Below, one piece after another: positions 10,333 to 24,589 of a DNA stretch of 36,900 bases. Every line of letters begins with the position of its first letter. The stretch's first letter is position 1. The position numbers and the translations under genes are program-made. This DNA is from Desulfuromonas sp. TF (lineage in GTDB: Bacteria > Desulfobacterota > Desulfuromonadia > Desulfuromonadales > ATBO01), in assembly GCF_000472285.1 (NCBI RefSeq), contig NZ_KI421417.1, positions 67,198 through 104,097 on the forward strand. The letters are read 5' to 3'. The notes below the pieces were generated by a model, which was not told the origin of the DNA, searched no databases, and was given only the letters and a program-made list of their open reading frames with translations.

Positions 10333-10357
10333 GATCAGTCTCCTTTATTGATGGGGC

Positions 10358-10777
10358 CTACGATTGATAATCGGTCTGGACCTCGAGGCCGTAGACCGTC
10401 AGCGATCCGCTGACGAACACCTGGGCGCAGGACTCGACGGAGAGCGGCTCGATCTCCAGTTCGAGGGTTTCATCCTCCAGCAGCGTCAGCAGCGACTTGA
10501 TGAGGTCGTAGGCGCCGCCGGTTTTCGTCCGGGCCTCCTTCTGCCCGCGCAGGTCCTTGGTGGCCGCCAGCACGGTGAAGCGCGGCTTGAAGGTCTTGGC
10601 GCCGTATTCGTCCAGAGAGGTTCCGAAGCCTGAGAACATGACGTACACCGCCGGGCACCTCGCCGGCAGGCTCTTGATCTCCTGCTCCAGCTGCCCGGCG
10701 TAGGACTCGACCGTTTTCAGGCCGGGAATCCCCTCGCGGATCGCGGCGATCAGTCCGTCCTCGATCTCGTCGAACAT
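10358..10777 (-). CDS. Mu gp37-like protein (DUF1834)
   Basis: The 139-residue protein starts at ATG 10777, sharing one base with the upstream stop (TGATG). MFDEIEDGLIAAIREGIPGLKTVESYAGQLEQ is characteristic of the Mu gp37 / DUF1834 family, thought to act as a tail terminator or head-tail joining component. It directly follows gp36, as in Mu. The C-terminal motif SGSLTVYGLEVQTDY fits the family. Confidence 0.85.
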   Translation of the reverse strand: MFDEIEDGLIAAIREGIPGLKTVESYAGQLEQEIKSLPARCPAVYVMFSGFGTSLDEYGAKTFKPRFTVLAATKDLRGQKEARTKTGGAYDLIKSLLTLLEDETLELEIEPLSVESCAQVFVSGSLTVYGLEVQTDYQS

Positions 10778-11202
10778 CACATCCCCCTCAGCTTGTCGCG
10801 GGTGAACTGGCGATCGGCGCCCGAGACGATGGCCGCGCCGGCGGAGGTGGTGGCCGCCGGGGCCGGGTCGACGCCCAGGCTCACCTGGCCCAGGGCGATC
10901 TTCTCCAGCAGGCGCACCGCGTTCTTGTGGGCGTCCTTGCGCGACTCGGGGATCTCGTCGACGGTGCGGCCGTAGAGGTAATAGATGGCCAGATCCGCCG
11001 CCAGCCCGGGGACGATGGAGGGGGCCGGGTCGAAGGGGACCTGGTAGCGCGCGCCGCACCAGGCGTCGATCTCCTGCGCCGCCCGGGCGATGGCCGCGTC
11101 GACCTTGTCCTGGTCGATCGTGCCTAGCCCGCCGTCGTCGGTGAGCTGGATGAGCGCCTCTTCGGGGATGCGCTCCAGGAGCGCGGCGAGGGTGGTGTAC
11201 AT
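10777..11202 (-). CDS. Mu gp36-like head-tail connector (DUF1320)
   Basis: The 141-residue protein (MYTTLAALLERIPEEALIQLTDD...) matches the DUF1320 / Mu gp36 family by its helical N-terminus, the AQEIDAWCGARYQVPF segment and the SGADRQFTRDKLRGM tail. These proteins connect head and tail. A GGAG site precedes ATG 11202 by 6-7 nt. It is the first gene after the second late-promoter cassette and so opens the tail operon. Confidence 0.88.
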   Translation of the reverse strand: MYTTLAALLERIPEEALIQLTDDGGLGTIDQDKVDAAIARAAQEIDAWCGARYQVPFDPAPSIVPGLAADLAIYYLYGRTVDEIPESRKDAHKNAVRLLEKIALGQVSLGVDPAPAATTSAGAAIVSGADRQFTRDKLRGM

Positions 11203-11211
11203 AAAAGACTC

Positions 11212-11225
11212 CGGGACGCGGGACG
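11212..11225. repeat. Heptamer repeat CGGGACG x2
   Basis: Two perfect copies of CGGGACG in the leader of gp36. The same family (CGTCCCG/CGTCCCT on the plus strand) occurs four times in a row at 27237-27264. Confidence 0.6.
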
Positions 11226-11258
11226 AGTAAAAAGACCGGGGAATTCCGGACTGGGGAC

Positions 11259-11300
11259 AGGATAGGGGATTGCGGGGGATTGGTTCAGGTGAAGGGCTTC
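11259..11300 (-). promoter_or_regulatory. Late promoter cassette (tail operon)
   Basis: On the minus strand a conserved block starts GAAGCCCTTCACCTGA, continues with ATCCCCCGCAATCCCC and ends in a -10-like TATCCT (plus 11259-11264). The block is nearly identical to the one at 22678-22719, with two substitutions over the 39 bases at 11262-11300. There is no recognisable -35, as expected for a promoter that needs a Mor/C activator. The GAAG-CC-CTTC dyad at the upstream end is a candidate activator half-site. It sits between an intrinsic terminator and the first tail-operon gene. Confidence 0.65.
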
Positions 11301-11340
11301 AAAAAGAAAAAGCCCCTTCCGGCGGGGACCGGAGGGGGCT
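11301..11340 (-). terminator. Rho-independent terminator ending the head operon
   Basis: On the minus strand a 12-bp stem with one G-T pair (plus AGCCCCTTCCGG and CCGGAGGGGGCT, 6-base loop) is followed by a run of T interrupted once. It lies downstream of the gene at 11393-11725 and directly upstream of the late promoter cassette. Confidence 0.87.
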
Positions 11341-11392
11341 GATCGAACATCCCATGGATAAACCAGGGCGCACTAAATGTCAATGCAAAATA

Positions 11393-11725
11393 TCAGGCCT
11401 GGGGTGCGGAGAGCTCCTGGCGGCGCTTCTCGATGGCCTCGAGGACGGTCTTGCGCTCCTCGCCCTCGGCCAGCTTGTCGAGATCCTCGAGGGTGGCTGC
11501 GACGACGACCAGCTTGATGCTCTCGGCGGCGTTGGGGCGAGGCGGGGCCTTTTCTTTCTCCTCGGTCTCGATCTCCTCGACCGTGAGCATCGGCTCGGCC
11601 TTCAGGCCGCGCAGCTGGTCGCGGGTGAACTTGTCCGCCGGGTAATCGGTCGGCGCTTTCGAATGAGCGATCCCGCAGCGGCGGAAGCCGTCCTTTTTTG
11701 CGGTGATGCGGATGAGTGTTGCCAT
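11393..11725 (-). CDS. Mu gp35-like / HI1506-family protein
   Basis: The 110-residue protein begins MATLIRITAKKDGFRRCGIAHS, matching the N-terminal domain of Mu-like gp35 / FluMu HI1506 proteins. ADKFTRDQLRGLKAEPMLTVEEI then leads into a charged helical tail. The ATG at 11725 has GGAGG 5 nt upstream; a TTG 12 nt earlier overlaps that site and is unlikely. It follows the capsid gene as in Mu. The function is not established; it may be a minor head or joining factor. Confidence 0.8.
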   Translation of the reverse strand: MATLIRITAKKDGFRRCGIAHSKAPTDYPADKFTRDQLRGLKAEPMLTVEEIETEEKEKAPPRPNAAESIKLVVVAATLEDLDKLAEGEERKTVLEAIEKRRQELSAPQA

Positions 11726-11738
11726 GCTTGCCTCCAAA

Positions 11739-11765
11739 GCAGGGGCGCGATTATCGCGCCCCTGC
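11739..11765. repeat. GC hairpin 3' of the capsid gene
   Basis: Perfect 12-bp arms GCAGGGGCGCGA and TCGCGCCCCTGC with a TTA loop. It starts 25 nt after the capsid stop codon in the minus-strand mRNA and has no T-run. Confidence 0.75.
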
Positions 11766-11790
11766 GTCAGGTTGATGGATCAGTCCGGAG

Positions 11791-12846
11791 TTACGCCTCG
11801 CCGGTCGAGCCGTAGGAGAGCTGCCAGAGGCCGTAGCCGCCGGCGGCGCGGGCTTCGGCGCCGAACTTGTATTTCTTGCGCATGAAGACGTCGTCCGCGT
11901 TCATGTCGGTCTGGGTAACGAAGACCGGCTTCTTGCGCTCCTGGTAGAAGAACGGCTTGATCGGGCGGCTGGTCACATGCAGCATCCACTGGGTGGTGCT
12001 GGTGATGCGGGGGTTGACCACCACCCTGGCCGTCCCCTGGTAGGGGTTGGGGGCGTTGTCGGCCAGCTTGTCCTTCTCGACGCACAGCCGGGCCATCGCC
12101 TCCAGGGCCGGGCCGACTTCCAGCACGTCGGGGACCAGGCCGAGGGGGCGCCCCTCGTCGTCCTTGAACGACATGATCGCCTCGCGACCTGCGCCGTAGC
12201 TGGCCTTAATGGCCGCAGTGGTCGCGTTGGAGAGCGCCTTCGTCCCCTTGTTGCTGACGCTGCTGGTGCCGCCGTCTCCGTCGCCGACAGGATGGTCGGT
12301 GTCATAGAAGTACTGGCCGTCGTAGCACAGGCCGGCGAAAGCGCCGTTTTTCAGGTCGGCGTCGATCTCGTCGGGGAGCTGCTTGGCGGAGAATCCCGCC
12401 TCCTGCGCCATGGGGGAGTAGATTCCCAGGGTGTCGTCCTCGATGTCGTTGCGATCGACCTCGACGGTCGCCTCCCAGTCGTCGTTCTCGACGGTGTACT
12501 TGTGAGCGGAGAGGGCCTTGATCACCTTGTCTCCGACCCACTTGCGCATTTTGGGAAAACGGCTCAGCCAGTTGTAGTTGTTCTGGCCCGATCCGGAGGG
12601 GACCAGCATGGTGGTCTGCTGCCAGATGCCGGTTGCGGCTTCAAAGGCCTTGTTGAAGGTGGTTTTGAGGTTGAGGAAGACGGCTTCCAGGTTGGCTTTG
12701 TTGACGATCATGCCGCCGATGGCGAGCATCGGCAGCGCATCGAGGGCGGTCCCCGCCGGTTCGGCCAGGGCCGCGAAGGGGAAGGCGATGCAGGCGGAGA
12801 GCAGCAACAGCGCCCAGATGCCCAGGGTGACAAAGGATCTTTTCAT
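11791..12846 (-). CDS. Major capsid protein, Mu gpT-like, with signal-like extension
   Basis: The protein has 351 residues. From residue 46 (MIVNKANLEAVFLNLKTTFNKAFE) it matches the Mu gpT major head subunit, with the family features YNWLSRFPKMRKWVGDKV and YDGQYFYDTDHPVGD. The 45 residues before that are not part of the usual gpT. They read MKRSFVTLGIWALLLLSAC followed by IAFPFAALAEPA, a signal-peptide-like segment with both a lipobox-like LSAC and an ALA-E type-I-like site. ATG 12846 has GGAGG about 10 nt upstream; the internal ATG at 12711 has no ribosome site. The extension is therefore probably translated, and could be removed by the prohead protease. Confidence 0.9.
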   Translation of the reverse strand: MKRSFVTLGIWALLLLSACIAFPFAALAEPAGTALDALPMLAIGGMIVNKANLEAVFLNLKTTFNKAFEAATGIWQQTTMLVPSGSGQNNYNWLSRFPKMRKWVGDKVIKALSAHKYTVENDDWEATVEVDRNDIEDDTLGIYSPMAQEAGFSAKQLPDEIDADLKNGAFAGLCYDGQYFYDTDHPVGDGDGGTSSVSNKGTKALSNATTAAIKASYGAGREAIMSFKDDEGRPLGLVPDVLEVGPALEAMARLCVEKDKLADNAPNPYQGTARVVVNPRITSTTQWMLHVTSRPIKPFFYQERKKPVFVTQTDMNADDVFMRKKYKFGAEARAAGGYGLWQLSYGSTGEA

Positions 12847-12875
12847 GACGTTTTTTCCTCCGTTAAAAGTGGGTT

Positions 12876-12902
12876 GTAGGGGCGAGGCATGCCTCGCCCG
12901 GT
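12876..12902. repeat. REP-like GC palindrome, copy B
   Basis: GTAGGGGCG followed by a palindrome (arms GGGCGAGGCA and TGCCTCGCCC at 12880-12899) and GGT. It matches 3147-3173 with compensating changes. It lies a few bases 3' of the decoration gene stop and about 30 nt before the capsid start. Confidence 0.72.
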
Positions 12903-12905
12903 TCA

Positions 12906-13787
12906 TTAACCGCCGACGGTCGACAGGGTCGCGCCGTCGTTGCCGGTAACGCGCCACACCAGAGCGCCAGCGACCTGGACCGCGGTGAGCACGATGGTCT
13001 CGCCGGCGTCGTCGAGGGTGATGGTGTTGTTGCCGGTCTCATTGACCGCCTCGGCGACGGTGATGACGCAGTCGCCGCCGTCGTCCACGTCGTGGCTGAT
13101 CGCCAGCTCGATGCCGGCGGCGCCGGGGATGGCCAGGGTGCGGGTCTCGCCGGCGGCGCCGGTGGTAATGGCGACGTTGCCGCTGCGGGTGACCGGGATG
13201 GCCCCGGCGTCGCCCGGGTCGGCGATCAGCACCGGCCGGGTGGCGAGCAGCTCGGCGATGGCCGCCTCGACGGTGGCCTGGGCGGTGAGCTCGCCGGCGT
13301 CGGCGAGGCTGATGGCGGTGGCCGCATGGGCCCCGGCCACGTCGGCGATGTGGGTGGCCACGTCGGTCTGCTGCAGGGCCGGGGTGATGTCGACCCAGCA
13401 GTCGTTGGCGCCGACCACCTCGGTGATCACGCCGCAGTAGATGTCCTGGTCGACGTCGCCGGCCAGGGCGACGGTCTGGTCGTCTTCCAGAAAGACGGCG
13501 TCGCCGACGTTCGCCTGGGTCAGGTTGCTGGCGCTGGCGAAGCGGAATTCTCCCCGGCGCCGGACGATGACCGACTTGGCGCCGTCGGCGCCGCCGGTGT
13601 TGTCGGCGCGCCCGTCGGCCACGCCCTGGAAGATGAGCCCGGCCGTGTCGCCCCCGGGCAGGGCATAGCCGGCGGCGTTCACCGCCACGAGGCTGCCCCC
13701 GTAGATGATGTCGTTGGTGATGACCAGCAGGGCGACCAGGATGCCGTCCCGTCGCTGGGTGTTCCGGTCTTGCGCGAGTACTGTCAT
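12906..13787 (-). CDS. Capsid decoration-like protein (DUF2190-type N-terminus)
   Basis: The protein has 293 residues. The N-terminal 110 or so (TNDIIYGGSLVAVNAAGYALPGG..., then VIVRRRGEFRFASASNLTQANVGDAVFLED) match the small beta-barrel capsid-stabilising proteins annotated DUF2190. It then has a helical linker (ATAISLADAGELTAQATVEAAIAELLA). A second beta-domain (about 200-293) carries NTITLDDAGETIVLTAVQ. Genes of this type lie next to the major capsid gene and encode abundant outer-surface proteins. The GGAG site is 8 nt from ATG 13787. The long C-terminal addition could be a surface-display domain. Confidence 0.75.
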   Translation of the reverse strand: MTVLAQDRNTQRRDGILVALLVITNDIIYGGSLVAVNAAGYALPGGDTAGLIFQGVADGRADNTGGADGAKSVIVRRRGEFRFASASNLTQANVGDAVFLEDDQTVALAGDVDQDIYCGVITEVVGANDCWVDITPALQQTDVATHIADVAGAHAATAISLADAGELTAQATVEAAIAELLATRPVLIADPGDAGAIPVTRSGNVAITTGAAGETRTLAIPGAAGIELAISHDVDDGGDCVITVAEAVNETGNNTITLDDAGETIVLTAVQVAGALVWRVTGNDGATLSTVGG

Positions 13788-13810
13788 GGGTCTTTCTCCT
13801 TGAAGGGGTT

Positions 13811-13845
13811 AGCTGCAAACTGAAAGCTGCAAGCTGATGGCTGCC
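13811..13845. repeat. Heptamer repeat, AGCTGNA family x5
   Basis: Five contiguous 7-mers AGCTGCA, AACTGAA, AGCTGCA, AGCTGAT and GGCTGCC fill the gap between the scaffold stop and the decoration gene leader. Confidence 0.6.
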
Positions 13846-13846
13846 T

Positions 13847-14341
13847 TTACCCGCCGTACTTCTTGAGGTCCTCTTCGCTATTGCCGAACATATCGGCGAT
13901 CTGCTTCTGCTCAGCGTTGAGGGCTACGCCGCCGCCCTCGGGGGTCCTTTTGCCAAGATCCGAAGGGTTGCCGATCACCGGGGCGGCCTCGACGAACTTC
14001 TTGAAGGCCTCGAGCCCGCCCTCCTGCCGGCACATGCCGACATAGTAATCCTTGGTGCCCGGGGTGACCTTGCCGGCCGCGACGGCGGCGGAGACTTCGG
14101 CGTTGATGGCGGTCTCCAGGTCGGCGGCCTCCTTCTCCTTGAGCTTCTGCTCGAAGTTGTTCGCCTTGCCCAGCGCCGCATCGTAATCGGCGCGAGGGAC
14201 GAACTTGTCGAGGCTGGGGGTTTCGGCCCGGTTAAGGGCCGTCTGCAGATCGCCCTGCATCTTGCCGATGGCGTTGAGCGCCTGCTCCAGGGTGGCGTCC
14301 TCGGGAAGCCCGAGCTTTGCCAGCAATTTTTTCCAATCCAT
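13847..14341 (-). CDS. Scaffold protein Z (internal start within the protease gene)
   Basis: Inside the protease gene a strong GAGGAGG site lies 5 nt before an in-frame ATG at 14341. This yields a 164-residue protein beginning MDWKKLLAKLGLPEDATLEQ. In Mu the scaffold Z is made from the 3' part of gene I in just this way. The product is helical and Glu/Lys/Ala-rich, with a short PEGGGVALNAEQKQIADMFG region near the end, as in many capsid scaffolds. Confidence 0.82.
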   Translation of the reverse strand: MDWKKLLAKLGLPEDATLEQALNAIGKMQGDLQTALNRAETPSLDKFVPRADYDAALGKANNFEQKLKEKEAADLETAINAEVSAAVAAGKVTPGTKDYYVGMCRQEGGLEAFKKFVEAAPVIGNPSDLGKRTPEGGGVALNAEQKQIADMFGNSEEDLKKYGG

Positions 14342-14887
14342 GGTTTCCTCCTCTGTGTTGCGTTGTTGACGATTAATGGCCGGCATGCGGAAGTTCGGCT
14401 TGTTGACGAGCCCGATGGAGCTGATCCCGCGAATGCGGCCGGTTTCTTTTTCAATGAGAATGGCGGGAGAGAGATAGCGGTATTCGCGGTTTTCCACGGA
14501 CGCCCTCCCTTTCGGAGTCCAGAGCATGCGCCCCCACACAGCACCCTCTCGCAGTTGCAGCTCCGGAATCCAGGCCGCGGCCGGGGCCTGCCCCCCCTGG
14601 GGAGCCTTGATCTCGGTGGCGTGCTCCCAGTCGACGGGGATGTCCCGGCCGTCGGCGGCGAGAAAGTCGAGAATCCCCTGCGGTTCGTTGTTGACGAAGG
14701 TGCGGCCGTCGCGGCCGGTCACCATTTGCCCGGCCGGGATCAGCTCCACCCACTCCGGGACGGAGCCGTCGGCGGGCAGCTCGAAATTGAGGGCGACGAT
14801 CTCGCACCCCTCGGGGAGCTCGATGGCGTTCAGCGCGGTTAGAAGAGCGCCGGAATTCCCGGAATCGTCACAAACTAGAATTTTCAT
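13847..14887 (-). CDS. Prohead protease/scaffold, Mu gpI-like
   Basis: This 346-residue protein starts at ATG 14887; a GTG 6 nt upstream is possible. The N-terminal half is a Mu I-type serine protease: His in DWEHATE (about residue 89) and Ser in GISSIGLVNKPN (about 156-157) are the likely catalytic residues. The C-terminal half is a charged helical scaffold (about 183-346) that is also made on its own from an internal start. It would cleave the scaffold and possibly capsid termini during head maturation. It lies between virion morphogenesis and decoration genes, as expected. Confidence 0.9.
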   Translation of the reverse strand: MKILVCDDSGNSGALLTALNAIELPEGCEIVALNFELPADGSVPEWVELIPAGQMVTGRDGRTFVNNEPQGILDFLAADGRDIPVDWEHATEIKAPQGGQAPAAAWIPELQLREGAVWGRMLWTPKGRASVENREYRYLSPAILIEKETGRIRGISSIGLVNKPNFRMPAINRQQRNTEEETMDWKKLLAKLGLPEDATLEQALNAIGKMQGDLQTALNRAETPSLDKFVPRADYDAALGKANNFEQKLKEKEAADLETAINAEVSAAVAAGKVTPGTKDYYVGMCRQEGGLEAFKKFVEAAPVIGNPSDLGKRTPEGGGVALNAEQKQIADMFGNSEEDLKKYGG

Positions 14888-15019
14888 GGTCACTGCCTTT
14901 CGAAAAATGCCCCAAAACCGTGTTTAAACCCTTTTTAAAATCGCTCCAGATCGACGCAGGTCGAAAATGGCGGGGTAGCTATGTTTCAAGCCGAGATCGC
15001 ACAGCAGGGGCGGAATCGA

Positions 15020-15535
15020 CTACCCGTCATTCAGGGCCATCTCCATGTGCTCGCGCAGCAGCTCCAGGATCTCCACCCGGTCGGCGTCGGTCACGCCGAG
15101 GAAGGGGCGCGCAGGGATGGCCACCTTGCGCCCCCGTCCGGCCTTGCCCCCGAGCTGGTGGATGGCCGCGTAGACCTTGCCCGTGCCGATCGACACCTGG
15201 TCGCTTCCCGGCCTGGAGTAGATCGAGCCGCGCAGCTCGCCGGAGCGGGTGAGGATCTGGCGGCTCGCGAGGTAGCGGCTGAAGGCGGCGGTCAGCGTGC
15301 CGTCCTGTTTCGTCTTCTTTTTCTTGAACCCGGAGCCCAGGCTGCTCGCCGCCAGCGGCTCCCACCTGGTCCCGTCCGGCGCCGTCTCCGTCTCGAAGCG
15401 CTCCTCGGTCGATCGCACCATCCGCTCGCCGATGGCCTTCATGACAGGGCTCAGGTTGCCGGTGGCGGCCTGGGCCCGCTGCAGGGCGGCGCGGACTTCG
15501 GTGTCGTCAATCTGGATGGAGAAGGCTTCAGCCAT
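15020..15535 (-). CDS. Virion morphogenesis protein, Mu gpG-like
   Basis: The 171-residue protein matches the phage virion morphogenesis / tail-completion family. It has an N-terminal helix (VRAALQRAQAATGNLSPVMKAIGERM), then RFETETAPDGTRWEPLA, then GSIYSRPGSDQVSIGTGKVYAAIHQLGGK, and the C-terminal PARPFLGVTDADR signature. It overlaps the F-like gene by 8 nt. A 132-nt gap separates it from the protease gene; I see no clear late-promoter cassette there. Confidence 0.9.
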   Translation of the reverse strand: MAEAFSIQIDDTEVRAALQRAQAATGNLSPVMKAIGERMVRSTEERFETETAPDGTRWEPLAASSLGSGFKKKKTKQDGTLTAAFSRYLASRQILTRSGELRGSIYSRPGSDQVSIGTGKVYAAIHQLGGKAGRGRKVAIPARPFLGVTDADRVEILELLREHMEMALNDG

Positions 15536-16295
15536 TGTCCGGCCCTTCCTCGATGCGCCGCTCCACCTCGGCGCGGATCGCCGCGGCCGACTCCTCCGGC
15601 AGCCGGGCCAGCGCCTTATCCAGCGCCTCGGCCTGGGCGCTCTTGCGCGCCTCGCCCACGTTGTAGTCCCACCCCTTGCCGATCCCTTCCGGGGCTCCGG
15701 TCGCCGGGTCGATCACGATCTCCGGCGCCTCGTCGGGGCCGCTCTTGCCCGCCCGGGCCAGGTCGCGCTTTCCGGCGGAGAAGACCTTGCACTTGCACCC
15801 CCAGGCGTTGGGCGGATAGTGGGTCTTCCACCAGGGGTGGTCGGCGGGCAGGATGATGCCGTTCCATCTCAGGTGCTCGCTGCGCGGCTCCAGGCTCGAG
15901 GTGCGGCGGTATTCCAAATAAGGGTAGAAGCGCAGCGTCTCCGGATCGGTCAGCTGATCCCAGCGCCCCGCCTGGTAGGTGGTGCGGATGTTGGTGGCGT
16001 AGATCACCTCGCTTCGCCAGTTGCGGCCGCCGTTGTAGCTCCAGCCATAGCGCTCGACGATCGCGTCGAAGTCCTTCTGAAATTCCTCCAGCGTCGTCCC
16101 CTGGCTGATCGCCTTGTCCACCGCGGCGCGAAAGTCGGCCAGCAGGTCGGCCTCCATCGCCCCGGCCACCATGAACCCGGCGGCGTGCTCCTCCTTCCAC
16201 AGGTCGTCCCACTTTGCGGTGGGGATGTCGACCTTGGCCCGGATCGCGTCGACGGCCGCGCCGAAAGGCTGATTGAAGATCCCTTTAATCGCCAT
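15528..16295 (-). CDS. Minor head protein, Mu gpF-like
   Basis: The 255-residue protein belongs to the Mu F / SPP1 gp7 head morphogenesis family. It has IYATNIRTTYQAGRWDQL and RWNGIILPADHPWWKTHYPPNAWGCKCKVFSAGKRDLA, the latter being the Cys-containing core motif of the family. It is shorter than Mu gp30, lacking a long C-terminal extension. ATG 16295 has GAGG 6 nt upstream and overlaps the portal gene by 11 nt. It helps assemble the portal vertex. Confidence 0.9.
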   Translation of the reverse strand: MAIKGIFNQPFGAAVDAIRAKVDIPTAKWDDLWKEEHAAGFMVAGAMEADLLADFRAAVDKAISQGTTLEEFQKDFDAIVERYGWSYNGGRNWRSEVIYATNIRTTYQAGRWDQLTDPETLRFYPYLEYRRTSSLEPRSEHLRWNGIILPADHPWWKTHYPPNAWGCKCKVFSAGKRDLARAGKSGPDEAPEIVIDPATGAPEGIGKGWDYNVGEARKSAQAEALDKALARLPEESAAAIRAEVERRIEEGPDNG

Positions 16296-17874
16296 CGAGC
16301 ACCTCGGCGCGCCCGGCCAGGTTGGCCAGGGCCATGGCCTGGGCCATCAGCGTGCCCATGTCGGCCAGGGGGATGTTTCCGGCCAGCTTCTCGATGCCGG
16401 CGCGGATCTCCTCGAGGCTCCCCGAGGTGCGCACCAGCTCGGCGATCGGCGCGATCATCGCGGCCATCGCCGGCAGCGATTCGCGCCCCAGCTTGTCGGC
16501 CAGGCGCTCGGCGGTGTCGGGTGTGGCCTGCTGCTCGGCGTTGAGCGCCAGGCTTCGCTGCGCTTCGCCCGGGCGAGCCCTATTGAGGTCGGGGGCTTGC
16601 CCCGGCACAGCTCCGCCAGGAGCGACGACGGGCGGGCCCAGCAGATCCTCCGGCTTGGCGTTCTTGTCCGGATCGGGCAGGCCGAACTTGTCTCGGATCA
16701 CGCTCTGCTCCACCCTTAAGCCCAAAGGGACCAACTTGGCCAGGGCGTCGGCCAGGGCCGCCGTGTCCTCGGCGTCCGGAGCCCGAAGCTGCAGGGTCGG
16801 GTAGGCCTCCTGCGGTCCGAAGTTCAGATCGACGAACGGCTTGATGAGGTCGCGCTGCAGGGTGTCCTCGAGCTGCTCGGCGTCGTCGTCGCGGATGTCG
16901 TCGCGCACCTCGGCCTGCAGCTTCTCGTCTCCCAGCTTGCCGGAGGTGCCCGAGGCGCTGGCGGTCTGCCCCAGGATCCCCTTGCTGATCTGGGCGTCGA
17001 GGTGGTCGGCCAGCACCTGAAAAACGGTCTCGCCCCCCGTCCCCTTGCGCTCGATCAGCTCGATCAGCATCGACTCGGGGAAGACGGCCGCGGCATCCGA
17101 GCCCAGGTTGGCCACCGCCATCTTGAGCACGTCGATATCCTCGGCCGAGGCGCCGGAGCGGTATTTGCCCAGGCGCAGCGGCATGCCGTAGATCTCGCAG
17201 AACGCCATCCAGTCCTTGACCGTGTATCCCTTGCACATGAAGGCCCAGGCCGCCAGACGGGCCAGGCCGCCGCGGATGGGAATCCCGCTCTTGATCTTCG
17301 GCACATGGACGATGAACCCGAAGGGGGCCAGGGGAGCGCCGTCAATGCCGTGCTCCAGGTCGCGCAGGCGCACCTCGCGGCGGGCGACCTGGTCGAACTG
17401 AAAGAAGTGCGGATCGCGCCATTCGTAGCGCCCCGGCCACCAGCGGCTGCCTGTGCGGTCCCAGATGATCTCCGCCACGGAAAACCCCTTGCCCAGGGCG
17501 TCGAGCAGGTCCTTGACCAGAAAGCGGAAGCCGCTGCGCTTGAGCAGGGAGCGCACCGCATCGGCGATCTCGATATCCCGGGGCTTATCCGACACCGCCT
17601 CGACCGACGCCGGCAGGCGGGCGACGGCCAGCTTGCGCTTGCCCAGCTCGCAGGCGTAGTGCAGATCCCGCTCCTCCATCTCCTCGGCCAGGGTCAGGTA
17701 GGCGTCATGATCCCCCTCGGTCGCCGAGCGCAGCAGGCCGGCCAGCTTGTACGGGGTGAGCCCGGAGGCGACGGTGTCGGTCCAGATGGTGCGCACTCCG
17801 GCGAGGGTCGGCGCGGCCTTCTCGCGGGTGAGGTCCTGAGTGCGGACGGGGCGGCCGTAGGCGTCGAGAAGCAT
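16285..17874 (-). CDS. Portal protein, Mu gp29-like (DUF935)
   Basis: The protein has 529 residues. Family features include an N-terminal DLTREKAAPTLAGVRTIW, then LDALGKGFSVAEIIWD, IYGMPLRLGKYRSGAS and LADHLDAQISKGILGQT. The last two are characteristic of DUF935 portal proteins. It forms the dodecameric DNA channel at the head vertex. The ATG shares a base with the terminase stop (TAATG). The C-terminal 90 residues are a helical, less conserved extension. Confidence 0.93.
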   Translation of the reverse strand: MLLDAYGRPVRTQDLTREKAAPTLAGVRTIWTDTVASGLTPYKLAGLLRSATEGDHDAYLTLAEEMEERDLHYACELGKRKLAVARLPASVEAVSDKPRDIEIADAVRSLLKRSGFRFLVKDLLDALGKGFSVAEIIWDRTGSRWWPGRYEWRDPHFFQFDQVARREVRLRDLEHGIDGAPLAPFGFIVHVPKIKSGIPIRGGLARLAAWAFMCKGYTVKDWMAFCEIYGMPLRLGKYRSGASAEDIDVLKMAVANLGSDAAAVFPESMLIELIERKGTGGETVFQVLADHLDAQISKGILGQTASASGTSGKLGDEKLQAEVRDDIRDDDAEQLEDTLQRDLIKPFVDLNFGPQEAYPTLQLRAPDAEDTAALADALAKLVPLGLRVEQSVIRDKFGLPDPDKNAKPEDLLGPPVVAPGGAVPGQAPDLNRARPGEAQRSLALNAEQQATPDTAERLADKLGRESLPAMAAMIAPIAELVRTSGSLEEIRAGIEKLAGNIPLADMGTLMAQAMALANLAGRAEVLDGD

Positions 17875-19526
17875 TACCAGAGTCCTTTCTTAACGCCGAA
17901 TCCGGCGGTGGTCTTGATCGGCCGCTCGGCCTGCTCGCGGCCGGCGCGGGGGACGGAGTGGTAGGCGTATTCGCAGACGTCCTGCTGGCTGGCGAACCAC
18001 ATCAGGGCCAGAGCGATCGCCGAGTCGCCGTGCCGCTTGAGCCCGGCGTCCTTCGTGTCTTGCACCTTGAGCTTGGGAAGCTTGATGATCCCGTCGATCC
18101 GCTCCAGGGCGCGCACGTCGTTGAGCACGTCGGCGTCGCTCGGCACATCGAGCATGCGATCGCGCCAGGCATCCTCGTAGCTCCCCATATTGTCGCGGTA
18201 CCAGGCATCGTTCAGCGTGACCTGCTGGATGACACCGTGCCCGAAACGGTCGGCGGTGTATTCGGCCAGGGTCTGGCCGTTGCCGGTGGCGTCCATGGCG
18301 CCGCAGCGGAAGCGCGGCAGGGCCTCGATCATCCTCCAGAGGATCTGCTCCTGCTGGCGGGTCGGCACGTTGTTCATCTCCAGCATGAAGGGAACCCGGC
18401 GCACCAGGTCCTGCCGGACCTCTCCGGGGGCGACGACGGCGAAGTCGGCGAAACGGGCATAGTCGCTGCCGAAAACGTGTTCCAGCTTCGGATCGAGCCC
18501 GTCGAGCAGCGGGTTGAGGTGCTGGCGGATCCAGTCCTCGGCCCAGCGCCTGCGGAACGTGTCGCCCTTGAGGACGAACTCCTTCTCCAGCGACAGGCGC
18601 AGGATCGGCCGGGGCTCGTGCATGCACTGCTCGACGTAGATGCTGGGGATCGCCACGCCGCTCCCCTCCCGGGGGATGGCGTCCAGCTCCTCTTTCATCG
18701 CGGCCGTGTTGGTGCCGTAGCTGCCGCGGATCTTCTTGTACCAGGCCTCCTTCCCCTCGGGGGTCGGGGTCCAGCCGCGCACCATGCACACCCGCTCGTA
18801 CAGCCCGTTGTTTACGGCGTCGTCGAAGGTGATGCGCATGATCTTGAAGGGCTGCAGGCCGGTCCGGCTGTCCTTGACCAGCTGGTTGAACGGGCTCTTG
18901 TCCGTGTTGTGCGTGCTGATGATGCGGATCTTGCCGCCCCAGATCAGCAGCGCCAGGGCCGAGTCGATGACCGCCTGGACGTTGCGGTGGAAGGCGGCCT
19001 CGTCGATATCGACGATCCCCTGCAGCCCGCGGATGTTTGCCGGGTTGCTCGACAGGGCGACGATCTGGAAGCCCGAGGCGAAGCGGATGCGATAGGCGGT
19101 GATCTCCTTGGTGGCCACTTCGTTGCCGACCTGGTCGAACTGCTGATCCCTGAAGAGAAAGACCTCGATGCCGTTCCAGTTCTCCGCCATGGCGCAGGCC
19201 ATGACCCGGGCGAAGTGGGCGCAGTAGCCGATGAACTCCAACCCCTTGTCCTTGGTGTCGCCGACGTAGTAGACATCGTCCCCGCCGGCCTCCTTGGCGC
19301 TGGAGGCGGTGATGGTGTCGTCCAGTGCGGTGGCGTAGGTGATCCCGGTCCGGCGCCCCTTCTCGGCGGCGCAGAGGTCTTCGGCATTGATCAGCTTGCA
19401 CCATTCGACCTGGTGCTTCATCAACACGCCTTCGCGCAGCGGGTTGTGATCGGCCGGCAGGCTGCGGACATCTTTGGGCAGCTCTTCGGGGCTGAGTATG
19501 CGGATGACGTCGCCGGGTTGATTCAT
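17874..19526 (-). CDS. Terminase large subunit, Mu gp28-like
   Basis: The protein has 550 residues. The ATPase half has a divergent Walker A (AEKGRRTG, about 54-61) and Walker B IVDIDEAAF (about 171-179). The nuclease half has acidic motifs in GSDYARFADF, GAMDATGNG and RHGDSAIAL, which fit an RNase H-like fold. It packages DNA by the headful mechanism in Mu-like phages and cuts in flanking host DNA. It overlaps the small subunit by ATGA and is followed by the portal gene. Confidence 0.95.
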   Translation of the reverse strand: MNQPGDVIRILSPEELPKDVRSLPADHNPLREGVLMKHQVEWCKLINAEDLCAAEKGRRTGITYATALDDTITASSAKEAGGDDVYYVGDTKDKGLEFIGYCAHFARVMACAMAENWNGIEVFLFRDQQFDQVGNEVATKEITAYRIRFASGFQIVALSSNPANIRGLQGIVDIDEAAFHRNVQAVIDSALALLIWGGKIRIISTHNTDKSPFNQLVKDSRTGLQPFKIMRITFDDAVNNGLYERVCMVRGWTPTPEGKEAWYKKIRGSYGTNTAAMKEELDAIPREGSGVAIPSIYVEQCMHEPRPILRLSLEKEFVLKGDTFRRRWAEDWIRQHLNPLLDGLDPKLEHVFGSDYARFADFAVVAPGEVRQDLVRRVPFMLEMNNVPTRQQEQILWRMIEALPRFRCGAMDATGNGQTLAEYTADRFGHGVIQQVTLNDAWYRDNMGSYEDAWRDRMLDVPSDADVLNDVRALERIDGIIKLPKLKVQDTKDAGLKRHGDSAIALALMWFASQQDVCEYAYHSVPRAGREQAERPIKTTAGFGVKKGLW

Positions 19527-20137
19527 CGGATTCCCAATACCTGCTCACGCCAGAACTGCGCGTCTTCCTTGGTGAGGCCGCGCTGGATCGCGGCATCCCC
19601 GACCTTCTCGGCGGCATCCTCCAGCGTCTGCTTGCGGATCTCCCGCTCACGCTCCACATTGAGATTCGCCGCCTTCTCCAGTCGCATGGTGGTCAAGGCC
19701 AGATCCTTGAGCATGCCGACCACGGCCGGGGCGGTCTCCTTGTCGATCGCATCTTCCTGCATGAACAGCGTCACGTCGAAGGAGAGGGTGCGCAGGATCT
19801 CGTTGATCAGGTTGCCCACCTGCCCCTGGGGGGCGGCGCCGAGCTTGTTGATCCAGCGGTCGGCGACCTCGCGGGACTGGCGCAGCCGCTCGCCCACGTC
19901 GCGCATCTGCAGGTCGTAGCGGTTGACGGCCGATTTGCTCACGGCCTCCGGACACGCCGGATCGAGCACCTCGGGATCTCCCGACTTGCGCAGCTCGGCC
20001 AGGGTGGCGTTGATCCGCTCCACGGCCTCGAGCTGGGTGATGCGCGGATTGTCCAGCATCTCCTGGAGCATCCGCCGCACGGGGGCGGGGAGCAGGTCGA
20101 TGCTCGACGGCTGGCGCTTCTTGCGCGGGCGGCCCAT
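19523..20137 (-). CDS. Terminase small subunit, Mu gp27-like (DUF3486)
   Basis: The 204-residue protein begins MGRPRKKRQPSSIDLLPAPVRRMLQEML, the typical DUF3486 start. It continues with an HTH-like segment (ITQLEAVERINATLAEL) and a helical body (AVNRYDLQMRDVGERLRQSREVA). Its ATG overlaps the stop of a 36-residue membrane peptide. It is thought to recognise phage DNA for packaging. Confidence 0.92.
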   Translation of the reverse strand: MGRPRKKRQPSSIDLLPAPVRRMLQEMLDNPRITQLEAVERINATLAELRKSGDPEVLDPACPEAVSKSAVNRYDLQMRDVGERLRQSREVADRWINKLGAAPQGQVGNLINEILRTLSFDVTLFMQEDAIDKETAPAVVGMLKDLALTTMRLEKAANLNVEREREIRKQTLEDAAEKVGDAAIQRGLTKEDAQFWREQVLGIR

Positions 20138-20247
20138 CAGCTGCCTCCCGTCAAAAACTCTGCGATCATCTCGGCGGTCGCGTCGAGAATCTTGTTGGCC
20201 AGAATCAGCGCGACCGGGAACAGGATGAGAAACAGCGGCAGTTTCAT
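20137..20247 (-). CDS. Small single-pass membrane peptide (36 aa)
   Basis: ATG 20247 has an AGGGGG site 6 nt upstream. The peptide is MKLPLFLILFPVALILANK followed by ILDATAEMIAEFLTGGS. The first 18 residues are a membrane helix. The stop overlaps the terminase small-subunit start. Both ends are tightly packed with neighbours, which supports translation. It could be a holin-like or antiholin-like peptide, since it lies in the block following the lysis genes; this is inference. Confidence 0.7.
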   Translation of the reverse strand: MKLPLFLILFPVALILANKILDATAEMIAEFLTGGS

Positions 20248-20250
20248 GGT

Positions 20251-20553
20251 TTACCCCCTCGGCCCGGGGCGCTTGACGCCGGGGACGGTTGCGCGGCCGG
20301 CGGCCACGTCGGCGCCGCGGCCGGTGAGGGTGGCCACCATGTAGCCGAGGGCGTCGCGCACGGTGATCAGCCCCTGCTCGGCGAGCCATGAGAGCTCGGT
20401 GCGGATGCGGTCGCGGCTCTCGGTGTGGCCGAAGAGTTCCAGCACCTGCTGCAGCACCGATTCGTTGTGGCTGTAGCCGGGATCCTCTGCCAGGGCCCTG
20501 AGGATCACCAGGCGGATATCGGCGGCGAGCAGTTCGGCGTAGTGGTGGCTCAT
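20251..20553 (-). CDS. Small winged-helix protein, Mu gp26-like position
   Basis: The 100-residue protein starts at ATG 20553, overlapping the upstream stop as ATGA. Residues 1-75 (AADIRLVILRALAEDPGYSHNES..., then RTELSWLAEQGLITVRD) look like a winged helix with a beta wing. Mu has a similarly sized gene (gp26) between gp25 and the small terminase. Its function is unknown; it may regulate late transcription or assist packaging. Confidence 0.75.
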   Translation of the reverse strand: MSHHYAELLAADIRLVILRALAEDPGYSHNESVLQQVLELFGHTESRDRIRTELSWLAEQGLITVRDALGYMVATLTGRGADVAAGRATVPGVKRPGPRG

Positions 20554-20975
20554 CTCTTTCCTCCCCCGTTGAGCAGGTGTTCGTTCATCAGGTCGACGGC
20601 CCGGGTCAGGCCCTTGAGCGCTCCGGTGATCTCGTGCAGGTCGGCGTGGACGTCCTCGATGCGCCGGGCCAGCTCCTTGTGGTCGGACTGGCTCGGCAGA
20701 TGCCGGATCTCCCCTTCCACCCGGGTGGCGCGCTCCTCGAGGTTGTCGGTGCGTTCCAGGTGCCTCTGGCAGGGGGCCCGCATGCTTTCGACGGCCTTGG
20801 CCAGGGCGGCCTTGGTCGCGCGCTCGGCGACTTCCCTCTCCATGGCAGCGAAGCGCTTGGAGGTGACCTTCTCCCGGTCTTTCCACCAGGAGTAAACTCC
20901 CAGGGCGACGAGACCGCCCACCTGGAGAATGTCGAACCAGAACCGCCAGGCGGTGTAATCGATCTCTGCGGCCAC
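20550..20975 (-). CDS. Membrane-anchored coiled-coil protein, Mu gp25-like (DUF2730)
   Basis: The 141-residue protein starts at GTG 20975 with a GGGAGGAG site upstream. It has one N-terminal membrane helix (FDILQVGGLVALGVYSWW) and a long coiled coil (EREVAERATKAALAKAVE..., RTDNLEERATRVEGEI, RRIEDVHADLHEI). This matches DUF2730 proteins that Mu-like phages encode between lysis and terminase genes. In some phages an i-spanin occupies this place, so an inner-membrane spanin role is possible, with the lipoprotein at 21240-21482 as partner. Confidence 0.82.
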   Translation of the reverse strand: MAAEIDYTAWRFWFDILQVGGLVALGVYSWWKDREKVTSKRFAAMEREVAERATKAALAKAVESMRAPCQRHLERTDNLEERATRVEGEIRHLPSQSDHKELARRIEDVHADLHEITGALKGLTRAVDLMNEHLLNGGGKR

Positions 20976-21188
20976 CTATCTCCTCCCTTGAATCCATTCA
21001 AATTTCCGCTGGCAGTCGATGCACCGGGTGCATCCCGGCACGGCCTTGCGGCGGGCCGCGGGGATCTCCTCCTCGCAGTCCTCACACTCGGTCAAGCTTT
21101 CGCCGACGGTTCGACGCCGGGAATGCGCCTCCAGGGCGTCGGCCTGCAGCTGTTCGTTGATGCCCTGGGCGCGGTCGATGTCGTCCAT
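20976..21188 (-). CDS. TraR/DksA-type zinc-finger protein
   Basis: The 70-residue protein has an N-terminal helix (DRAQGINEQLQADALEAHS) and a four-cysteine zinc finger CEDCEEEIPAARRKAVPG followed by CTRCIDCQ. This is the pattern of the short TraR/DksA phage and plasmid proteins, which bind the RNA polymerase secondary channel and can mimic ppGpp/DksA. Mu-like phages often carry one in this position. It may adjust host transcription late in infection. Confidence 0.88.
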   Translation of the reverse strand: MDDIDRAQGINEQLQADALEAHSRRRTVGESLTECEDCEEEIPAARRKAVPGCTRCIDCQRKFEWIQGRR

Positions 21189-21194
21189 AAAATC

Positions 21195-21222
21195 CGTGAT
21201 TCGTGACTGGTGATCAGTGATC
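21195..21222. repeat. Heptamer repeat, GATCACN family x4
   Basis: Four contiguous 7-mers on the plus strand: CGTGATT, CGTGACT, GGTGATC and AGTGATC. They fill the 51-nt gap ahead of the DksA-like start. The same family occurs three times at 28815-28835. Confidence 0.6.
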
Positions 21223-21239
21223 GGTTAAAGGCCGAGGGC

Positions 21240-21482
21240 CTACTTCGCCAGACCCGGAAACAGGACCTCTCGCAGCGCCTCTGCCACGGGGTCGTTCTGG
21301 CTCTTGACCACCTCGCCCCGGGCCCCGCAGGCCTCCAGAGTGGCGGCGTCGACGCCCTTGAACAGGCTGGAGTAGGTCGCCTCGCAGGTCTTGCCCTTGG
21401 GGTCGACGGTCTTGACGTTGGCGGTGGCGCAGCCGGCCAGAGATGTCAAACAAATCAGGGCAAACAGGATCAGCTTTCTCAT
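21240..21482 (-). CDS. Small lipoprotein in the lysis block (possible o-spanin)
   Basis: The 80-residue protein has a signal peptide MRKLILFALICLTSLAGC with a good lipobox (LAGC; Cys18). The mature part has two more cysteines (KTCEAT, LEACGA) and a short helix at the end. ATG 21482 overlaps the upstream stop as ATGA. A lipoprotein after endolysin and amidase-like genes could be an outer-membrane spanin subunit, but there is no clear Pro-rich region, so this is tentative. Confidence 0.8.
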   Translation of the reverse strand: MRKLILFALICLTSLAGCATANVKTVDPKGKTCEATYSSLFKGVDAATLEACGARGEVVKSQNDPVAEALREVLFPGLAK

Positions 21483-22018
21483 GCGATTTTCTCCTCGATG
21501 CGGGTGATGGACTGGCACAGCTCCATGAAGTCGCCGGGGTCGGCGGTGCGCTCGAACTCCCGGAAGCCGGCGGCTTCCCAGACCTCCTGGGCGAAGGTCG
21601 AGCAGACCTTGGCCCAGACGGGGATGGGGCGGCGGATGATCTGGGAGGCCCAGACGGTGACCAGGGAGAGCCAGCCGTACCAGCGGCGGATGCCCTTCTC
21701 GGTGCGGTACCGGGTGGCGGCCTTGTAGACGCCCTCCCGGGCGGCGCGGACCACATCGGGAGCGACGCCGTGGAAGATCATCTGCCCCTTGCGCCGCTCG
21801 AACCACTGGGAGGCGGGCATGGACTGATACCCCTCGCCCTCGACGAACTCGAAGACCCACAGCCCGCCGCCGCGGAACTCCCCCTTGGGCCCGGGCATCC
21901 ACACCAGCACGGCCACGTGGGAGACGGACTCGGCGGAGAAGATCCGCACGAAGCGGTTGCCCCTCACCAGGAGGACGTCGCCGGTGCGGGCCGTCATGCG
22001 CATGCTTTCGTAGGTCAT
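21479..22018 (-). CDS. Permuted NlpC/P60-like cysteine hydrolase
   Basis: The protein has 179 residues. TGDVLLVRG is followed by SHVAVLVW (His34) and WVFEFVEGEG (Glu57); CSTFAQEVWEAAGF (Cys139) comes late in the sequence. This order is that of permuted papain-like YiiX/NlpC-P60 enzymes. These cleave peptide or amide bonds, in cell walls or lipids. Being coupled (ATGA) to the endolysin suggests a cell-wall role at lysis or entry. A hydrophobic stretch at about 115-130 (WYGWLSLVTVWASQII) could touch membranes. Confidence 0.75.
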   Translation of the reverse strand: MTYESMRMTARTGDVLLVRGNRFVRIFSAESVSHVAVLVWMPGPKGEFRGGGLWVFEFVEGEGYQSMPASQWFERRKGQMIFHGVAPDVVRAAREGVYKAATRYRTEKGIRRWYGWLSLVTVWASQIIRRPIPVWAKVCSTFAQEVWEAAGFREFERTADPGDFMELCQSITRIEEKIA

Positions 22019-22596
22019 CGGACATCCTCCCGGCAGATTTTGACGATGTTGTTCCAGCGACGCTTCACGTCGTCGGGGCGCTTTTGCCCCCAGGCGGTCT
22101 GTTTAAGCTTGAAGGTCAGGATGGCTTCAGCATCGACCTGGCCGGGGTAGCTCTTGAAGTACGTTGCTGCCTTGCCGCCGAAGTCGAGGCGGTACTGGTT
22201 GTGGTAGTCGCACAGGTGCAGGAAGGCCTCCTCGTCGGCCAGATGGAGATCCTCGATCATCACCATCCGCTGCACGTGGTCGACGGCGGCAGCGATCTCG
22301 GCGGCGTCGAGGCGGTCGACGACGGCGGCCGCGCCCAACAACTTGGAATTCATCGCGTTCAACTCAGCGGGGCTGCAAGTCTGGTTCATCAAGGAGTCGG
22401 CCTCGATCATGGAGAAGCCGCACTCGATGAGCCCGGCGTAGGCGTGGCGGTTGTGGCGCAGGTCGAACTGGCACACGCCGTAGGAGTAGCCCGAGCGGCC
22501 AGGGCCGTCCGGGTCGGAGAAGTGGTAAGCCAGGCCGGGATGATTCCCCAGCTCGTTGGCGATCAAGATGCGGCGGAGAGTGTCGACTGCGTTCAT
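22015..22596 (-). CDS. Putative endolysin (lysozyme-fold peptidoglycan hydrolase)
   Basis: The 193-residue protein has IANELGNHPGLAYHF (Glu15 likely catalytic), then GRSGYSYGVCQFDLRHN, which resembles the active-site cleft of transglycosylase or muramidase-like phage enzymes, and a helical C-terminus. There is no signal peptide, so it would need a holin. It is the first gene after the late-promoter cassette at 22.7 kb, matching the position of Mu lys. Its ribosome site is weak (GGGTGG close to the ATG), and a very stable hairpin lies in its leader. Confidence 0.68.
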   Translation of the reverse strand: MNAVDTLRRILIANELGNHPGLAYHFSDPDGPGRSGYSYGVCQFDLRHNRHAYAGLIECGFSMIEADSLMNQTCSPAELNAMNSKLLGAAAVVDRLDAAEIAAAVDHVQRMVMIEDLHLADEEAFLHLCDYHNQYRLDFGGKAATYFKSYPGQVDAEAILTFKLKQTAWGQKRPDDVKRRWNNIVKICREDVR

Positions 22597-22621
22597 GGGC
22601 CACCCGTCAGGATTGGAGGCG

Positions 22622-22648
22622 GGGCGCCGGCATGGCGGGCCGGCGCCC
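22622..22648. repeat. Stable hairpin in the endolysin mRNA leader
   Basis: Perfect 10-bp arms GGGCGCCGGC and GCCGGCGCCC with a 7-base loop. It lies 25 nt upstream of the endolysin ATG and downstream of the predicted late start site. Confidence 0.75.
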
Positions 22649-22677
22649 TGAGAAAGGGAGAAGATGCGACGGGGACC

Positions 22678-22719
22678 AGCATAGGGGATTGCGGGGGATC
22701 GGATCAGGTGAAGGGCTTC
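22678..22719 (-). promoter_or_regulatory. Late promoter cassette (lysis/head operon)
   Basis: This is the partner of the block at 11259-11300. On the minus strand it reads GAAGCCCTTCACCTGA, then ATCCCCCGCAATCCCC, and ends in TATGCT (plus 22678-22683) as the -10 box. It has no clear -35. A terminator lies directly upstream and the endolysin gene about 80 nt downstream, which is where Mu has Plys, controlled by C. The Mor/C-family gene at 24244 is the obvious activator candidate. Confidence 0.68.
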
Positions 22720-22725
22720 ATAAAC

Positions 22726-22755
22726 AAAAAGCCCCCTTCCGGGGAGGAAGAGGGC
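22726..22755 (-). terminator. Rho-independent terminator upstream of the lysis promoter
   Basis: On the minus strand a 10-bp stem with one mismatch (plus GCCCCCTTCC and GGAAGAGGGC, 5-base loop) is followed by TTTTTGTTT. It would stop transcription coming from the XRE/ImmA insertion and the early region, and insulates the late promoter. Confidence 0.83.
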
Positions 22756-22847
22756 AGTCTTTACACGATTGTATTATCAACAAACGTGTGGGCTGTCAAA
22801 TATTCATTACCTGACCAGACAGGAGAAAGATGCGTTGGAAGGAAAGC

Positions 22848-22868
22848 GGGGGAGGGGTTACCTCCCCC
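22848..22868 (-). terminator. Hairpin after the 43-aa gene (possible weak terminator)
   Basis: An 8-bp GC stem GGGGGAGG / CCTCCCCC with a 5-base loop lies about 10 nt past the stop of the small gene at 22878. It is followed only by scattered T, so termination is uncertain. Confidence 0.45.
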
Positions 22869-22877
22869 GGAAAAGGA

Positions 22878-23009: not shown

Positions 23010-23037
23010 CTGCCTCTCCGGAAACAGATTCTTCAGC

Positions 23038-23066: not shown

Positions 23067-23072
23067 TCTTCT

Positions 23073-24236: not shown

Positions 24237-24243
24237 ATTATTT

Positions 24244-24588
24244 TTACCCAAACAACCCCATCTGCCGCTTCCGGAACTCCTCGTCGCGCACCCGGGCAAG
24301 GATCGAATAGATCTGCCGCTCAGTGAGGCCGTACTCCTTGGCCAGCGCGAAGGAGTTGGAGCCGGTGAACTTGCGCCAGATCTCGTAATCGCGCTCGGTC
24401 AGCGCCAGGGCCAGCCCCTTGGGGATGTAGACCTGTTCGCCGCCGTAGGTCCGGCGCACCTGGTCGGCGGCCTTGAGGCCGATGGTGCGGGCCTGCTCCG
24501 GCTCGGCGCCGGCCTCGATCTGCCCCTCGGTGACCAGGCGGGCCAGGTCGAAGAGCACCTGGCTGCCTCTCTTCTCGCTCTCTTCCAT
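24244..24588 (-). CDS. Mor/C family late transcription activator
   Basis: The 114-residue protein has the Mor dimerisation motif GGEQVYIPKG (49-58) and a C-terminal HTH (FALAKEYGLTERQIYSILARV, about 80-100). In Mu, Mor activates the middle promoter and C the late promoters; only one family member is seen here. It would act at the conserved blocks at 22.7 and 11.3 kb. A GGAGG site lies 8 nt before ATG 24588, and the gene follows the 258-aa gene with 1 nt between. Confidence 0.92.
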   Translation of the reverse strand: MEESEKRGSQVLFDLARLVTEGQIEAGAEPEQARTIGLKAADQVRRTYGGEQVYIPKGLALALTERDYEIWRKFTGSNSFALAKEYGLTERQIYSILARVRDEEFRKRQMGLFG

Positions 24589-24589
24589 C

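Follow-up and report, generated by a model that had tools for sequence, protein, structure and literature searches.

What replaces the late activator C in Mu-like phages that encode only Mor? For 3927AP2, phiMhaMu2 and SuMu, which have no C and carry lys directly after mor, experiments to find the equivalent function have been called for (PMC4553209). The same question is raised by a Mu-like transposable prophage in a 36,900-nucleotide (nt) stretch of the Desulfuromonas sp. TF genome (NZ_KI421417.1, 67,198 to 104,097; hereafter the window), which carries a MuA-type transposase gene (31490–33724) and, on the minus strand, terminase, portal, protease, capsid, gp36-like adaptor and tape measure genes. 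Two matched DNA blocks, A and B, stand ahead of its tail operon and its lysis and head operon, respectively, and are very probably late promoters of the prophage, activated by its single Mor-family protein at a palindrome present in both. The blocks, their geometry, the single Mor-family match, the kinship with the Mu middle promoter Pm and the recurrence of the box in other phages are established at the level of sequence.

Blocks A and B form an ungapped direct repeat of 77 nt with 84% identity (11249–11325 and 22668–22744, minus strand), and each consists, in this order, of a terminator, a T-tract, TGAAGCCCTTCACCTGA, a C-rich spacer and TATNCT (Table 1). The 52 bases ending in the -10 box are identical at 47 positions, including 12/12 in the dyad and 23/25 in the spacer, and among the window's 52-nt stretches ending in TANNNT the two blocks are the sole pair with at least 30/52 identity. 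After the -10 box, 11 of the next 20 bases are identical, and a short GTCCCC is common to both with a 1-nt shift. The sequence TGAAGCCCTTCA is a palindrome with the arms TGAAG and CTTCA. The 16-mer GAAGCCCTTCACCTGA and the 19-mer ATCCCCCGCAATCCCCTAT each have two copies in the window, where shuffled sequences yield on average 0.41 and 0.01 matches, respectively, at up to three mismatches. Perfect copies of both occur in the 4.40-Mb genome at blocks A and B only, in line with the initial annotation, which had taken the blocks to be confined to the phage; inexact copies are found at seven more places for the 16-mer (two mismatches; three places for the reversed control) and at one more place for the 19-mer (three mismatches).

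The description of two matched same-strand blocks with TATNCT behind intrinsic terminators holds, as both terminators are a GC-rich stem-loop followed by a T-run. The absence of a -35 box was likewise confirmed: the best hexamer at 16–18 nt matches the consensus at 3/6 positions in both A and B, and neither block was listed in a -35/-10 promoter scan of 9000–26000. The -10 boxes are preceded by CCC, which leaves them without either a -35 or an extended -10 element, as in Pm-type promoters. Both blocks also lie where they had been said to lie, with a gp36-like head-tail adaptor gene and then tail genes behind block A, and a gene in endolysin position followed by terminase, portal and head genes behind block B.

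Table 1. Coordinates of the predicted promoter elements and of the genes connected with them (window positions; a slash marks the dyad centre)
Feature	Coordinates	Strand	Description
mor-like activator gene	24244..24588	-	114 amino acids; PF08765, PHROG 532 and PDB 1rr7 matches
Intrinsic terminator, block A	11311..11340	-	stem-loop, -22.7 kcal/mol, z -3.8
T-tract of terminator A	11302..11310	-	same place as in block B
Dyad of block A	11290..11301	-	TGAAGC/CCTTCA; predicted Mor site
-10 box, block A	11259..11264	-	TATCCT, identical to Mu Pm
First gene 3' of block A	10777..11202	-	gp36-like head-tail adaptor, tail operon start; PHROG 195 E 1.6e-41; PF07030 E 1.8e-32
Intrinsic terminator, block B	22731..22755	-	stem-loop, -19.5 kcal/mol, z -3.5
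T-tract of terminator B	22721..22730	-	about -60 to -50 of promoter; placed like Mu Pm proximal UP subsite
Dyad of block B	22709..22720	-	TGAAGC/CCTTCA; predicted Mor site, centre 31 nt before -10
-10 box, block B	22678..22683	-	TATGCT
Hairpin in lysis operon leader	22622..22648	-	10-bp, GC-rich
First gene 3' of block B	22015..22596	-	193 amino acids, endolysin position

The candidate activator, the product of 24244–24588, belongs to the Mor/C family, matching the Pfam Mor family PF08765 with an E-value of 1.8e-29 and 102.3 bits (curated cut-off 24.9) and PHROG 532, a family of late transcriptional activators, with an E-value of 3.6e-33. Its profile positions 8–112 of 114 match the Mor of PDB 1rr7 (E 5.2e-13), a relation by sequence to the solved Mor, and the profile also matches PDB 9l0x, a C protein. 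As the initial annotation had anticipated, there is one activator: PF08765 has this single match in the whole 4.40-Mb genome, in which no C gene was found, so that Mor probably acts directly on the late genes. A protein search with Mor in 58 genomes, including its own, gave a match in three, and a scan of genome contigs for relatives yielded two loci, L052 and the distant L053. In a tree of 17 Mor/C proteins 9 of the 14 inner branches are open, so that the two-step cascade of Mu may or may not be derived.

The Mor dimer of Mu recognises inverted repeats within a 16-base-pair (bp) element that is centred at -43.5 in Pm, a promoter without a -35 box (PMC4390567, PMC4287176). Pm is known to need Mor, and has an A/T-rich element at -57 to -52, the proximal UP subsite, which is contacted by the polymerase alpha subunit (PMC4390567). 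In the Mu record the Pm dyad TAAAGC/CGGTTA is centred 30 nt before TATCCT, and this TATCCT occupies -13 to -8 by our own count from the primer given in PMC4390567, which reproduces the centre at -43.5. The distance from dyad centre to the first base of TATNCT is 31 nt in both A and B (also in L009, L052, SuMu and Mannheimia, introduced below), placing their centres at -43.5/-44.5 and within 1 nt of the Pm geometry; the window boxes thus sit where a Mor site should sit. The claim of a Mor-type promoter architecture is supported by this agreement and by the model ranks given below. Pm and the window blocks are alike in the -10 box without -35, the A/T-rich stretch just upstream, the Mor-family activator and, for A, TATCCT; the position of the A/T-rich subsite at -57 to -52 is covered in the window by the terminator T-tract, and a terminator-like hairpin lies at or beside the promoter in the window and, by eye, in Pm. 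The 5-bp repeats separated by 6 bp that characterise Pm do not occur in A and B, which have TGAAG-N2-CTTCA. However, the initial view of a binding sequence that does not resemble the one in Mu does not stand, since the window dyad equals that of Pm at 8 of 12 positions, the -10 box of A equals that of Pm at 6/6, and with Pm as the only source of the model A ranks first and B third in the window. The flanking C-rich block, which had been counted as part of the binding sequence, corresponds to the spacer between dyad and -10 and bears no sign of binding; pyrimidine-rich spacers are common at the compared sites, with 50–92% pyrimidines on the non-template strand at 16 sites (Fisher p 4e-16, a statistic that ignores kinship and intergenic composition).

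The promoters Plys, PI, PP and Pmom of Mu, which are activated by C, resemble A and B in having lysis, head and tail genes behind them and in placing the site of an activator of the same family in the -35 region, but they need the second activator C (PMC4461284), as the window promoters probably do not. When Mor-box models were run on Mu, none of the listed top four to six matches was immediately in front of the endolysin, I, P or com/mom genes, and the C-type late promoters of Mu seem to differ from the window boxes. Whereas Pm drives middle genes including C, Mor in the window probably drives two late operons directly, and the difference from Mu would lie in the wiring, with no C gene found, rather than in the box. 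Late operons served directly by a Mor box, with a single activator in the phage, appear to be new; in the accessible text of the open-licence literature, including PMC4378225, PMC2628397, PMC8705779, PMC3447690, PMC4461284 and PMC9239132, no account of Mor boxes at late operons was found.

A search for the block in related prophages, which the initial annotation had proposed, located the cassette in two related lineages, between mor and the endolysin gene. The relatives are two IMG/VR contigs with a Mor 66–67% identical to that of the window (L009 and L010), an IMG/VR contig with a 45% identical Mor (L018) and a contig of a Desulfuromonas sp. metagenome-assembled genome, also at 45% (L012/L052). 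In all of them a terminator, a T-tract, a dyad (GGAAAC/GCTTCA or TAAACC/GCTTTA) and TATCCT are located 3' of mor, with 31-nt spacing. The gene behind the cassette encodes GH108 in L009, Amidase_3 in L052 and a protein of unassigned family in the window, which indicates that the cassette was kept while the lysis gene was exchanged. The exact block pattern had no match in IMG/VR, and a 50-nt block query had no blastn match in 50,697 phage records. Block B DNA, searched against 98 genomes including its own, gave the two own matches and, in one other genome, a 33-base match confined to the terminator part. A filter for TATNCT, dyad and T-run found matches in 10 of 30 IMG/VR loci, of which only those in L009, L010 and L018 were accepted, those in L019, L026, L033, L034, L036, L037 and L045 being judged chance by eye. 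Dyad-like matches at L009:19460 and L010:9815 were set aside, as they lie at gene ends by our own reading and have a poor -10 (TACGGT).

Boxes of this kind are also found in C-less Mu-like phages. AFS-2018a (Pasteurella), SuMu, Mannheimia 3927AP2, Bise, PhiKM and KP12 share two features with the window, a single annotated Mor-family gene (in KP12 annotated as a DNA-binding protein) and boxes of comparable form in front of lysis, protease I, tail or gp46-like genes; two to four candidate promoters were seen in each, some with a start codon at the predicted +1. The AFS-2018a sites (TTTAAAGC/GCTTTAAA type, 30 nt) precede the amidase, protease, tail and gp46-like genes, and the best of them form a 16-bp palindrome that covers both the Pm and the window arm forms. 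In SuMu and Mannheimia 3927AP2 the boxes are of the GGAA type, with 31-nt spacing, and stand ahead of lysis, protease and gp46 genes; those of Mannheimia were seen by eye. A strict scan for dyad plus -10 sites repeated within a genome gave six pairs among four sites in AFS-2018a and none in 13 other genomes, including the window, whose dyad scores 5/8. A loose scan of the 14 genomes (dyad at least 5/8), with ten Markov shuffles as the window control, gave one pair in the window vs none in its shuffles, six pairs in AFS-2018a vs a shuffle mean of 0.8 (up to 2), and one pair in HS6 vs a mean of 1.0; the single pair in Kp4866-3 (shuffles 0) was rejected, both sites being judged chance. No pair was found by the loose scan in nine others of the 14 genomes, including Bise, PhiKM and Mannheimia, so the repeat scan misses sites.

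The kinship between the boxes was assessed with position models. The main model combined four AFS-2018a sites, two SuMu sites and Mu Pm, the former two sets being taken from within-genome repeats, with the SuMu sites chosen for their positions and not for statistics. Among the 147,434 placements in the window it ranked A and B first and second, with scores of 23.1 and 20.5 vs 17.2 for the next placement. In 500 trials with permuted model columns, both blocks were never in the top two (0/500), and either was there in 3/500. With models made only from other phages, A and B were always within the top three window placements, and in the reverse direction a model of window and AFS-2018a sites ranked Pm first in Mu. 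Leave-one-out tests over eight phages, with SuMu and Mannheimia left out together, gave ranks of 1 and 2 in the window, 1 in L009, 1 in L052, 1 to 4 in AFS-2018a, 1 for Mu Pm and 2 in PhiKM; the sites in L009, L052, Mannheimia and PhiKM had first come to notice through similarity or on inspection by eye.

For Bise and KP12 the model also contained the window sites. In Bise, which lay outside the model and whose sequence was already present, on the other strand, in the repeat list of the scan that gave the window pair, three of the top four matches (7015, 29320 and 19259) stand 12 nt before an annotated gene start on the same strand, and the fourth (36671) lies 330 nt before an annotated Dam methylase. 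In KP12, a close relative of PhiKM fetched after the model had been fixed, the top two matches precede, on the same strand, the annotated starts of the lysis operon (32 nt) and a gp46-like gene (12 nt). When the model was run on 28 further records, including 14 of the 28 loci L018–L045, sites were accepted in Bise, PhiKM, L009, L010, L052 and L018, and L029 has an accepted Pm-like site that follows mor. For Mannheimia the model listed a single one of the phage's sites, in third place, and the remaining records yielded nothing convincing.

Several results weigh against reading A and B as Mor-activated late promoters. Without SuMu the model still ranks A first but tied at 19.4 with a site at 35748, and B third, and the model from AFS-2018a alone places 35748 first, followed by B and A; B is also only third with Pm alone, and the window-only model ranks Pm second in Mu. 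The leave-one-out ranks are poor in SuMu (1, 25 and 532) and in Mannheimia 3927AP2 (134, 675 and 743), the activators of which are very divergent, and the two SuMu pairs of the loose repeat scan are no excess over the shuffle mean of 1.5 (up to 4). The symmetric arms lie 2 bp further out in Pm than in the window, and the spacing is 30 vs 31 nt. In Bise, the match at 19259 falls inside the end of an annotated 68-amino-acid gene, and at 7015, 29320 and 36671 the dyad abuts or overlaps the end of the gene before it. Model and repeat scans gave nothing convincing in JBD18, JBD25, phiSHP3, HS6, Kp4866-3, RcapMu and martha, and the box is thus not universal in the family. Nor is promoter A, since L009, the nearest relative, keeps promoter B but has no block that could be found ahead of gp36.

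The activator of A and B could instead be another phage protein, such as an early protein or the helix-turn-helix (HTH) protein of 23729–24088 (HTH_3/HTH_31), which is encoded between mor and block B and would suit palindromes of a kind typical of operators. This is unlikely, because the same kind of dyad marks Mu Pm, which needs Mor, and because a tblastn search (1e-4) with the HTH protein gave no match in the examined pieces of L009, L010, L018 and L052, all of which carry the box; of these, only L018 and L052 have a match to its M78 neighbour. The close likeness of the two blocks admits other explanations. The spacer, which is not expected to be bound, is nearly as conserved as the dyad, and the similarity extends upstream into the terminator, as might be expected if the repeat were some other RNA or DNA element, for example an antitermination signal, a recombination or packaging site or a repressor operator, that stands before the operons by chance. 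Such an element is very improbable, however: identity falls just after the -10 box, which fits a promoter better than an element that is transcribed, the dyad geometry equals that of Pm within 1 nt, and no block A was found at the matching place in L009. That same result in L009, and a likeness of A and B greater than function would need, would also suit a recent duplication of the promoter block within the phage that left only one copy functional; this is very unlikely, given that terminator, dyad and -10 are intact in both copies while the downstream flanks differ, and that both copies precede operons.

Activation by Mor, as homology and geometry suggest, might proceed as follows. The palindrome TGAAG-CC-CTTCA, with its centre near -43.5/-44.5, would substitute for a -35 box: a Mor dimer bound there would bring the host RNA polymerase to a TATNCT that is inactive alone. 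The promoter of block B would then drive the lysis and head genes and that of block A the tail genes, presumably late in infection. Judging from its position, the upstream terminator may cut off transcripts from early and accessory genes and so insulate the late operon, and its T-tract may double as an A/T-rich upstream contact for the polymerase alpha subunit. Mor itself as late activator would be a concrete and cheaply testable answer to the question of what replaces C in mor-only phages (PMC4553209). In part of the C-less group the conserved box may guide searches for late promoters, and Mu Pm probably contains one representative of a broader class of Mor sites.

The leaders of the lysis genes may add a guard against read-through. 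When transcripts read through from upstream, their -10/+1 stretch can base-pair with the lysis gene's ribosome site, an arm of the duplex that is missing from RNA begun at +1; pairing is strongest in the AFS-2018a and PhiKM leaders. Duplex energies were compared with 1000 shuffles of the 5' arm for eight lysis promoters and six others. Among the lysis promoters, p was 0.001 in AFS-2018a, SuMu and Mannheimia, 0.003 in PhiKM, 0.020 in L052, 0.052 in L009 and 0.816 for Mu Plys; window B can form the leader helix, but not significantly (p 0.178). Among the others, p was 0.001 for the AFS-2018a tail promoter and 0.043 for Pm, the remaining four, including window A (0.955), being not significant. 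Leader pairing with the ribosome site works likewise in T4 gene e (PMC3014915). Complementary lysis leaders were noted at L080:9647, L087:10083, L088:9609, L086:32285 and L052:4775, and hairpins were also seen in the folded leaders of L009 and L052.

In five gp46-type genes (SuMu, Mannheimia, PhiKM, KP12 and Bise) translation would begin exactly at the predicted +1, as the start codon is 12 nt downstream of the first -10 base, and in AFS-2018a 13 nt after it, which suggests that their late mRNA is leaderless. The -10 box forms the loop of an inverted repeat at the gp46-type genes of PhiKM, KP12 and AFS-2018a; the gp46-type sites were recorded at L087:30505, L088:29082, L086:17260, L093:4878 and L081:29320. 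It is conceivable, though we hold it only tentatively, that in C-less Mu-like phages the late regulon is run directly from Mor boxes and that its leaders deprive read-through RNA of any use, so that at some lysis promoters the gene would be well translated only from RNA begun at the Mor promoter, by the logic of T4 gene e reached independently; in the window lineage the terminator would stop most read-through first, and some gp46-type genes would start at the predicted +1.

The two promoters need not make up the whole late regulon, as had been proposed, for the minus strand has a third candidate at 35748. Its element (35743–35784) comprises TAGACC/GGTTTA and TATATT at 30-nt spacing, ranks first to third with models from other phages and comes after a hairpin (z -4.0) that has a T-run. 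A plus-strand open reading frame (35254–35775) has its stop codon within the stretch covered by the dyad and contains the -10 box, so that the site is antisense to its end and points towards the repressor gene. No minus-strand reading frame of at least 60 amino acids starts between the site and the antisense reading frame 34830–35156. The site may be due to chance, or may be the source of RNA antisense to repressor-side genes.

For the product of 22015–22596, searches of PHROGs, Pfam and NCBIfam gave no match with a meaningful E-value, and it is possibly a new endolysin type. In RcapMu, a near-identical terminator block, CCGGACCTGTGTCCGGGGGTTTTGC, occurs twice, once between the genes for activator and endolysin and once ahead of the protease gene (L090:13940–14018 and 22171–22440), with no Mor box listed there by the model. 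Between mor and block B of the window, 23155–24208 holds the pair of HTH protein and M78 metallopeptidase, which resembles an accessory unit, with a sigma-70-like promoter ahead of it (24208–24180) and terminators after it; an M78 relative also lies 3' of mor in L018 and L052.

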